Source: an uncultured Roseburia sp. (GTDB taxonomy: Bacteria; Bacillota; Clostridia; Lachnospirales; Lachnospiraceae). Taken from it: a DNA stretch of 46,564 nucleotides. Position numbers and translations under genes: made by a program. Positions 13,270-16,117 of this stretch are shown here, piece after piece (positions within the stretch are counted from its first letter, which is position 1; every line of letters starts with the position of its first letter). The DNA lies in assembly GCA_945836255.1 (NCBI GenBank), contig CAMAKU010000003.1, forward strand, positions 1 through 46,564, read 5' to 3'. The notes under the pieces are model-generated. The model worked only from the letters and a program-made list of their open reading frames with translations, did no database searches and was not told the origin of the DNA.

Positions 13270-13971
13270 TCATATGACGGTTTGTTTTGCCATCTCTTTG
13301 TTCAAACGCTTCATAATCTTTTTTTCCAGTCTGGATATGTAGGATTGGGAGATGCCCAGAAGGTCTGCCACCTGTTTCTGGGTCAATTCTTCTCCATCCT
13401 TGGAATGCAAGCCAAATCGCAGTTCCACAATCAGTTTTTCTCTTCCGTTCAGCGTCTTTAACGCCTGATGCAGAAGTTTGAGATCCGCCTGTGTTTCCAA
13501 ATCCCGATAAATCACATCTTCATCCGTCCCCAGAATGTCCGACAACAACAACTCGTTCCCATCCCAATCCACATTGAGAGGTTCATCGATGGACACCTCC
13601 AGTTTCTGCTTGCTGTTTTTCCGCAGATACATCAGTATCTCATTTTCGATACAACGGGACGCATAGGTGGCCAGTTTGATGCTCTTGGATGCATCAAACG
13701 TATTGATGGCCTTCATCAGACCAATGGTTCCGATGGAGATCAGATCCTCCGTCCCCACCTTCGTATTGTCGAATTTCTTAGCAATATACACCACCAGCCG
13801 CAGGTTATGCTCGATGAGTTTTTCCTTGGCCTCCTTATCTTTTGTCTCCCGAAACAAATCAATGTAATATTTTTCACGTTCTGCATCCAACGGCTCCGGC
13901 AGTACCTCCGCACCGCCAATATACAGCACTTCCTGATTCTGTTCTGTCAACCACTTAAATAATAACCGCAT
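13270..13971 (-). CDS. sigE: Sporulation sigma factor SigE precursor
   Basis: 233 residues. Conserved SigE blocks are seen: [70 protein letters not shown] and a region 4 with [17 protein letters not shown]. It directs early mother-cell transcription after removal of a pro-sequence by SpoIIGA. Here the pro-sequence before YIGG is only about 16 residues ([16 protein letters not shown]), shorter than the roughly 27 in Bacillus subtilis. An in-frame TAG five codons upstream rules out a longer start. AGGAG precedes the ATG and overlaps the spoIIGA stop codon; the gap is 12 bases. Confidence 0.97.
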
Positions 13972-13983
13972 GATTTTCCGCTC

Positions 13984-14751
13984 CTAGCAATAGTCTTTAT
14001 GTAATATCATTTGGTATTTCTTTCCCTGAAACAGCGATGCTTTGCCGAATCCAATCATCATATCTTTCTGCCACTGCATCTGCCCTTGCTGTTTAACCAA
14101 AAATTTCTCTACCGGTATCACTTCCATGAAATCCTTTCCCGCCACCGTCTCATAAGGAATGCAGCGCAGGGTCTGCTGCGGCGTTACCCAGCGGTCTTTC
14201 CACTGGTCGGACACTACACAGACCGCCCGTCCCGTCAACGGATCCCGAAGACCATTGCCGGTATCCGCCAGTGCGACCATATGCTCCACCTGATCTGCCA
14301 CCAGAAAAGCCACCTCCCGATATGACTGCTTCCGTGTCTGACGTATCCCCTCTGCCACAACAAACAACATCAGCACCACACCGGAAATCGGCAACAGCAG
14401 ATCATAAGCCCTCGCCGGCAGCATCTGCTTGAAAAATTGCAGCACGCCTCCCAGTAGCAGATTCATCATGACACAACACAAATACCGCCGCACAAAGGCT
14501 TTGCATCCCCCATACCCGTAAGCAATGGCAAGCATACCGCCATTCACTGGCAAAAAGATGAGAAACAGATACAGCCAGAAGATTGGAACTCCTAAGAAAC
14601 AGAGGATACCGCCAACAGTGCCCGCCAACGCCGCCGTCAGAATGCGCCACCAACGTATGGGATATTTGCACCAGATTCCCAGCGCAATCAGACTGATACT
14701 ATCCAGTACAAAATTTTCCAGAAAAAGAACGTCCAGATAAACTGCATAAAT
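13984..14751 (-). CDS. spoIIGA: Sporulation sigma-E processing peptidase SpoIIGA (probable ATT start)
   Basis: 255 residues if started at ATT (14749-14751). The track starts at an internal TTG 41 codons later, which would remove the first membrane segments. The upstream frame stays open and reads YAVYLDVLFLENFVLD, matching the expected MYxxYxDVLFLxN N-terminus of SpoIIGA. AAAGGAGG lies 9 bases before ATT, and no ATG, GTG or TTG sits at the right place in frame. The N-terminal half has about five membrane helices. The C-terminal half carries the aspartic-protease-like motif ALADTGNGLRDP (Asp163). SpoIIGA cleaves pro-SigE. An alternative is a one-base frameshift error in a TTT run, which would join the nearby out-of-frame ATG. 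Confidence 0.85.
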   Translation of the reverse strand: MYAVYLDVLFLENFVLDSISLIALGIWCKYPIRWWRILTAALAGTVGGILCFLGVPIFWLYLFLIFLPVNGGMLAIAYGYGGCKAFVRRYLCCVMMNLLLGGVLQFFKQMLPARAYDLLLPISGVVLMLFVVAEGIRQTRKQSYREVAFLVADQVEHMVALADTGNGLRDPLTGRAVCVVSDQWKDRWVTPQQTLRCIPYETVAGKDFMEVIPVEKFLVKQQGQMQWQKDMMIGFGKASLFQGKKYQMILHKDYC

Positions 14752-14793
14752 AAAAAGCCACCTCCTTTGATAAAATCATTATAAGGAAGTGGC
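14748..14793 (-). terminator. Intrinsic terminator of ftsZ, interleaved with the spoIIG promoter and RBS
   Basis: Minus strand GCCACTTCCTT (14783-14793) pairs over 11 bp with AAGGAGGTGGC (14757-14767, one G-T pair), followed by TTTTTATTT. It starts about 33 bases after the ftsZ stop codon. The 3' arm is the spoIIGA ribosome binding site, the U-tract contains the ATT start, and the loop contains the TATAAT of the spoIIG promoter. Confidence 0.75.
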
Positions 14794-14812
14794 TTCATAT
14801 AAAATGTCGAAA
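14778..14812 (-). promoter_or_regulatory. spoIIG promoter with Spo0A box
   Basis: Minus strand TATAAT (14778-14783) with a 0A-box TGTCGAAA on the plus strand (TTTCGACA on the minus strand, 14805-14812) placed 21 bases upstream, where the -35 would be. In Bacillus subtilis the spoIIG promoter is a SigA promoter with an over-long spacer and Spo0A bound next to the -35; the layout here matches. The predicted start is near 14771, giving a leader of about 20 bases. Confidence 0.7.
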
Positions 14813-14825
14813 TCCAACTGCTAGA

Positions 14826-16040
14826 TTATTTTCTTGTGTTCTTCAAAAATTCAGGAATCTTGATATCTTCCTGCTTTACGCTGCTGGTAGGCTGCTGCGG
14901 CTTACTCAGTGAAGAAAAACTGTTGGGAACACTGGTCTGCGGTGCTGTCCCGGCTGGCTTCACCGGTGCTGCCGTAGAACTATGTAATCCGCTGCTAAAG
15001 CCTGTGGTAGACGGCTTTGTTGCCGTAACCGTATCTGCGTACTTCATATTGTTCAGAAGAGAACCACCAATGGATGGCTTGGCTGCCGGAGCCTCCTCCA
15101 ATCCGGTGGCAATAACCGTAATCGTCGCCTCGTCCGGCATAGACTCATCATACTTGGCACCAAAGATAATATTCACTGAATCACCTGCCAAGTCCTTGAC
15201 ATAGGTAGAAGCCGCATTGGCATCCATCAGGGAAATATCACCGGAGATATTGATAATGACATGGGTAGCGCCATTGATGGTGGTATCCAGCAACGGACTC
15301 TCCACAGCCATGCGAACTGCTTCGGTAGCCTTCTCGTCGCCCTTTGCCGTACCAATACCGATATGTGCCAGTCCCTTGTCCTTCATAACGGTCTGTACAT
15401 CTGCAAAGTCCAGATTAATCAAAGCCGGCAGATTAATCAGATCGGTAATTCCCTGTACTGCCTGCTGTAACACTTCGTCTGCCTTCTTCAATGCTTCCGG
15501 CATCGTCGTTCTGCGATCTACAATCTCAAGTAACTTGTCATTGGGAATGACAATCAGCGTATCCACATTCTCCTTCAACTTCTCAATACCGGCATTGGCA
15601 TTCACCATACGGGTCTTAGCCTCGAACTTAAATGGCTTTGTAACCACACCAACCGTAAGGATACCCTGCTCCTTAGCGATCTTGGCAACCACCGGTGCTG
15701 CTCCCGTACCGGTACCACCGCCCATACCACAGGTAACAAATACCATATCTGCTCCCTTGACATGTGCCGCAATCTCCTCAGCGGTCTCCTCGGCAGCCTT
15801 CTCGCCAATCTCCGGCTGTGCGCCTGCACCAAGCCCCTTCGTCAACTTCTCTCCAATCTGAATCAACTGGGGAGCCTTGCACAGAGCCAGTGCCTGCTTA
15901 TCGGTGTTGATGCCGATAAACTCTACGCCGGCGATATTCTCATCGATCATTCTATTAACAGCATTATTACCAGCACCGCCAACTCCGATTACAATAATCT
16001 TAGCGCTGGAATCTGCTTCATTCGTCATAATTTCAAGCAA
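14826..16040 (-). CDS. ftsZ: Cell division GTPase FtsZ
   Basis: 404 residues from a TTG start: [27 protein letters not shown] lies 8 bases before TTG, while the track ATG 16 codons upstream has no ribosome binding site. GTP-binding residues [11 protein letters not shown] (near 22), the tubulin signature [10 protein letters not shown] (near 108) and the T7 loop region [11 protein letters not shown] (near 208) are all present. A Pro/Ser/Thr-rich linker (about 318-390) leads to the C-terminal peptide [12 protein letters not shown], the site that binds FtsA/SepF-type partners. It polymerises into the Z ring. It has its own promoter after ftsQ and a terminator that overlaps the spoIIG promoter. 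Confidence 0.98.
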
Positions 16041-16117
16041 GGTCTTGTCCTCCTTCTTCCTATCTAAAAAATCTATGACAGCCGCCATAAATCACATTCT
16101 ACAAACCCATATAAAAT

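Follow-up and report, generated by a model that had tools for sequence, protein, structure and literature searches.

We analysed a window of 46,564 nucleotides from an uncultured Roseburia sp. of the Lachnospiraceae (contig CAMAKU010000003.1). On its minus strand, ftsZ is followed by spoIIGA and sigE. The ftsZ coding sequence (14826..16088) is a 420-aa reading frame with FtsZ sequence, ending at the TAA stop 14828-14826. The spoIIGA coding sequence occupies 13984..14751 when read from the AUU codon discussed below, and its frame matches PF03419 at 14742-13993 with E = 7.9e-42 over positions 2-283 of 284. The next gene of the operon, sigE (13270..13971), starts with ATG and encodes 233 amino acids, among them a region 2 motif typical of sporulation sigma factors. 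Upstream of spoIIGA, the heptamer TTCGACA (14805..14811), a perfect 0A box TGTCGAA in reverse, overlaps the -35-like hexamer TCGACA (14810-14805). The distance from TCGACA to the -10 hexamer TATAAT (14778..14783) is exactly 21 nt, so that the preliminary description, which had placed a Spo0A box 21 bases upstream of the -10, is borne out as far as the sequence goes. An 0A box at the -35 and an unusually long spacer, the marks of a spoIIG promoter, are both present, and the box is a putative Spo0A site. From the position of the -10 alone, transcription is predicted to start near 14771; the same start had been proposed before, and it is reasonable.

The 21-nt promoter spacer also contains the 5' arm of an RNA hairpin (GAAGCCACTTCCTT, 14783..14796). 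The 3' arm (AAGGAGGTGGCTTT, 14754..14767) includes the extended Shine-Dalgarno (SD) sequence AAGGAGGTGG of spoIIGA, which begins at 14767 and scores -13.4 kcal/mol against the anti-SD; the earlier identification of this arm with the SD of spoIIGA is therefore confirmed. The last base of the 5' arm is the first base of the -10, and TATAAT lies at the 5' edge of the loop. Thus, the 5' arm should lie upstream of the predicted transcription start. The hairpin exists directly after ftsZ, as had been described, and it has 14 pairs, two of them G-U, instead of the 11 given at that time. Taken alone, it has a free energy of -21.8 kcal/mol (z = -5.9 against shuffles, 0/200 of which were as good), and within a 90-nt stretch the z value is -4.6. 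A stable hairpin 3' of the ftsZ stop, followed directly by the U-tract UUUUUAUUU, has the form of an intrinsic terminator, and termination is predicted here. A simple terminator scan of the window returned no site, because it accepts only loops of 3-8 nt. The U-rich stretch behind the hairpin (TTTTTATTT, 14748..14756) consists of the U-tract at 14756-14752 followed by ATTT, and it also holds the putative AUU start codon (14749..14751). The overlap of the hairpin at the end of ftsZ, the promoter and the SD of spoIIGA is real.

We then compared the stretch within the genus. A contig scan with a single SpoIIGA protein gave no match, and an alignment of ten members was too diverse for the search; the alignment of the genus yielded nine loci. 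The named genus members are metagenome-assembled genomes labelled Lachnospiraceae or Roseburia; they are incomplete, and that of the window is 83% complete. SpoIIGA of the other genomes is 39-47% identical to that of the window. In 5/5 genomes both arms, the -10 and the ATT are kept invariant, as is TTCGACA. The invariant blocks of the genus alignment are TTTCGACA, AGCCACTTCCTTATAAT, AGGAGGTGGC and TATTTA; the loop and the beginning of the spacer differ between members in both sequence and length. Within the spacer, only the 5' arm segment AGCCACTTCCT does not vary. The promoter needs no fixed sequence at this place, so the invariance of the 5' arm fits pairing with the SD. Part of the conservation of the 3' arm segment AGGAGGTGGC could be explained by the constraints on the U-tract and the SD. 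No covariation was seen among the five genomes, in which the arms do not vary; the support from re-paired arms is owed to a second lineage and to the difference between the two.

The promoter is almost universal in the family. With all spacings between 15 and 25 given equal weight, TNGACA and TATAAT were found 21 nt apart in 211/227 family loci. In the spoIIG promoter of B. subtilis the -35 and -10 are 22 nt apart. The promoter of the window resembles the spoIIG promoters of Bacillus and Clostridia in its position before spoIIGA-sigE, in the 0A box core TGTCGAA and in the long spacing (21 nt in the window), but its spacer also encodes an arm of an RNA hairpin. Spo0A binding at spoIIGA has been reported in C. 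difficile (PMC3485338).

The family loci contain several other arrangements. In a second type of overlap, the -35/0A box lies in the loop of a terminator-like hairpin, the U-tract of which runs into the -10, and the ribosome binding site (RBS) stays outside. It was found in 10/227 loci (L158, L227, L054, L035, L298, L271, L274, L064, L174, L132) against 0.2 expected from shuffles. A palindromic element, CCAAATCGATTTAG, occupies a nearly fixed place in the spoIIGA leader, about 18 nt 3' of the -10 (L054, L057, L060, L061, L075, L079, L103, L104, L109, L119, L128, L129, L168, L180). AAANCGNTTT resembles operators of the LacI family, so an additional regulator of spoIIG is possible. Some loci (L261, L266, L272, L283, L298, L115, L172, L294) have a leaderless-looking spoIIGA with ATG about 6-7 nt past the -10 and without an SD. 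Such a spoIIGA would likewise be translated only from RNA of its own promoter.

To assess the layout of the window across the family, we measured the pairing of the promoter spacer with the SD region. Pairing of a locus's own arms was at least 25.5 in 28/214 loci. When arms were re-paired between loci 10,000 times, a mean of 2.2 loci and a maximum of 9 reached this value, and a control stretch of the same length 5' of the -35 reached it in 6 loci. Because the 28 loci were picked on pairing, the comparison of own and other arms inside this set is an illustration only. We used instead the own-arm pairing summed over all 214 loci without selection, which exceeded that of the re-paired arms (p = 1e-4). 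The layout occurs in two lineages. A tree of sigE, built from the layout loci with a usable sigE, separates the genus of the window (100/100) from a group of other genera (74/77). The apparent lack of sigE behind six layout loci was an artefact of the search pattern, and the gene is present there. In both lineages the 5' arm lies within the 21-nt promoter spacer, and the arm sequences are unrelated; those of the second lineage are quite different, for example AAAACACCCTCCATAACCT with GGGTTATGGGGGGTGTTTT. Own arms gave values of 32.0 and 34.5, and arms crossed between the two lineages gave 17-18. A locus of another family (L350) shares this layout; it has seven U and an ATG start.

It could be that the hairpin is only the terminator of ftsZ, and that a short gap forces promoter and RBS to overlap with it, no translational control having been selected. 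The gap of about 29 nt between ftsZ and the hairpin is in keeping with this, as are the ten loci described above, in which terminator and promoter overlap without sealing of the RBS. However, the upstream gene of the 28 layout loci is aroD in 17 and ftsZ in 6, five of which belong to the genus of the window (5 loci have no call), and in the second lineage it is usually aroD. An ftsZ-only feature would not be expected behind aroD. At the aroD loci the hairpin is kept at spoIIGA, often at a distance of over 100 bases from the stop of the upstream gene. That it remains beside spoIIGA whichever gene precedes it speaks for a role in controlling spoIIGA and against a mere terminator of ftsZ. Moreover, both lineages have the SD within the 3' arm and keep the 5' arm on the upstream side of the -10. 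Compaction as the whole explanation is therefore unlikely: the hairpin is probably a control element of spoIIGA, which would double as the ftsZ terminator in the window. The inverted repeat could also work as DNA, as a regulator site across a promoter where Spo0A and possibly other regulators act. A protein site would hold its sequence and spacing, whereas the spacing of the arms varies widely (25-57 nt from the -10 to the start in the 28 loci), their sequence is wholly different between the lineages, and a U-tract is present. This makes a DNA site very improbable compared with control of spoIIGA by an RNA hairpin.

About 87% of the family loci tested do without the RBS hairpin. Sporulation in general can therefore proceed in its absence, and the hairpin represents one solution, confined to particular lineages, not a general requirement. 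The conservation of the overlap in related Lachnospiraceae, which the preliminary description had named as a check, is partial: the overlap is present in the 28 loci, and some of the remaining ones have a terminator clearly apart from the RBS.

According to the preliminary description, the SD is sealed in read-through RNA and free in RNA of the own promoter. The predicted folds agree with this. In the window, the unpaired probability of the SD is about 0.001 in the read-through RNA against 0.43 in the own-promoter RNA; the minimum free energy structures also have the SD paired in the RNA from the upstream promoter. Across loci, arms pair far better with their own partners than with arms taken from elsewhere. 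The median unpaired probabilities in the 28 layout loci are 0.0005 for the read-through RNA, a value near zero that is partly built in because these loci were chosen on pairing, and 0.40 for the own-promoter RNA, which is free of this effect. In 131 other loci the medians are 0.30 and 0.36, respectively.

The start codon of spoIIGA in the window is most probably AUU and not AUG. Around the start, the SpoIIGA frame reads TGG CTT TTT ATT TAT GCA GTT TAT CTG GAC, and it contains no ATG, GTG or TTG from the upstream stop to the conserved N-terminus. The ATT at 14751-14749 lies 9 nt after AGGAGG and is the sole start-like in-frame codon at a proper distance from the SD. Four other genomes of the genus also read ATT TAY GCN RTW TAT YTG GAY. 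Because all five genomes share this ATT, an assembly error is rejected as the reason for the missing ATG. The sequence features of an infC-type start are found here: a near-cognate codon, an extended SD, conservation between species and the lack of a canonical in-frame start. In two of the five genomes of the genus (L004 and L006) an in-frame ATG is present, though upstream of the SD. The gene infC itself apparently begins at ATT in the genus of the window (4/4, L187-L190), and an ATG follows four codons later.

The preliminary description had the start codon within the U-tract. This holds for the AUU; the ATG it had chosen (14745..14747) is out of frame. It is barely conceivable that SpoIIGA is made from this ATG by frameshifting, or from a later codon: the ATG is kept in 4/5 genus members, but its SD spacing is longer, its own frame meets TGA after 19 codons, G003/L212 has TTTACG in place of TTTATG while the ATT is retained, and if translation began instead at TTG 14628, where the frame has its earliest canonical start codon, the protein would lose about 41 N-terminal residues, among them the conserved YxD...NF region.

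It turned out that such starts recur in the family. We collected spoIIGA starts from 229 family loci and obtained 84 GTG, 68 ATG, 47 TTG, 16 ATT, 4 ATC, 3 ATA, 4 ACG, 2 CTG and 1 AAG. The share of AUG is 30%, and AUU, AUC and AUA (AUH) together make up 10% (23/229, in about 17 genera). On the tree, AUH starts need about 10 changes, at least 4 of which are forced. Within two genera the codon varies between species and yet remains AUH (ATA/ATT in g72, ATT/ATC in g63). The median SD strength is about -13 kcal/mol for AUH starts against -6 for ATG, a difference to be read with the fact that the start caller itself weighed SD strength. As a control, sigE of 50 of the same loci starts with ATG in 45 (90%), with GTG in 3, with TTG in 2 and with AUH in none. 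Among 70 loci of the class outside the family, there is at most one possible AUH case (L348). Further near-cognate candidates stand in the expected position, behind a good SD: ACG in L245, L260 and L066, AAG in L301, and CTG in L284 and L064; L245 and L301 come from two species within a single genus. Single-locus calls, chiefly those of ACG, AAG and CTG, deserve less confidence than the AUU shared by a whole genus. In two more distant relatives (L215, L217), spoIIGA begins with ATA TAT GCG GTA, AUA replacing AUU. These were left out of the counts, as they were found partly with a peptide pattern beginning IYA, which favours such hits.

Taken together, these data point to the 65-bp stretch as a compact switch, by which SpoIIGA would be made only from RNA begun at its own promoter; we give this reading a probability of about 0.7. 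Read-through RNA from ftsZ would form the hairpin, and most of it would terminate in the U-tract. In RNA continuing past the terminator, the SD would be paired and closed. The Spo0A-activated promoter (0A box/-35, 21-nt spacer, TATAAT) would give RNA from near 14771. Since the promoter spacer is the 5' arm, an RNA starting there necessarily does not contain this arm, and its extended SD would be open. Ribosomes would then initiate at AUU, and the synthesis of SpoIIGA would be low.

A similar logic has been suggested for the adjoining gene of the spoIIGA-sigE cluster. In B. subtilis sigG, a hairpin of 20+ pairs was proposed to block read-through RNA from the spoIIG promoter; it cannot form in the RNA of the gene's own promoter, and expression is further lowered by an RBS hairpin and by the weak GTG start (PMC5942855). 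The sigG leader differs in that it belongs to another gene with a sigma F/G promoter and has no AUU start. Its hairpin, unlike that of the window, is not described as fused with a terminator and the spacer of a Spo0A-type promoter. In phage T4, the RBS of I-TevI and other late genes is sealed in RNA from upstream promoters, and the late-promoter RNA is without the 5' part of the structure (PMC2988022). The promoters there are phage late promoters, and no merger with the terminator of an upstream gene is described. In B. mycoides, two terminators after ftsZ close the dcw cluster, the spacer is longer, and no RNA spanning ftsZ and spoIIGA in full was detected (PMC3762067).

Near-cognate starts are also known from other genes. 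The genes infC and pcnB of E. coli start at AUU, infC being the classic AUU gene. S. aureus has conserved non-canonical starts in cvfC1 (AUU), ccpN (AUA) and infC (AUA), with extended SDs, and in poor medium the AUU/AUA sites tested reached about 10% of what AUG yielded (PMC13009471). The present case differs from these in that the gene is spoIIGA, the AUU lies within the U-tract of a terminator, and AUU, AUC and AUA vary between genera. Searches of an open-access library turned up no description of spoIIGA starting at a non-canonical codon. Judged by the papers covered there, three things appear to be new: the site itself, the merging of a terminator with a promoter spacer and an RBS, and the repeated occurrence of AUH starts in spoIIGA.

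The SpoIIGA protease activates sigma E, which is a nearly irreversible step of sporulation, and spoIIGA is often found downstream of ftsZ, which is transcribed constantly. The arrangement in the window suggests that leakage is stopped at three levels within 65 bp: by termination, by a sealed SD and by a weak start. Automatic annotation that seeks ATG, GTG or TTG will probably set the spoIIGA start wrongly or cut the gene short in such genomes. The data also raise the question of why near-cognate starts occur in spoIIGA, yet AUG in the adjoining sigE. Tentatively, and with more doubt than confidence, we suggest that spoIIGA may be under recurrent start-codon control (in about 17 genera, AUH preceded by an extended SD). 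Commitment to sporulation would then be set by the fidelity of translation initiation (the level of IF3 or the state of the ribosome) on top of Spo0A, and RBS hairpins and leaderless RNAs would be further routes to synthesis from the own promoter only.
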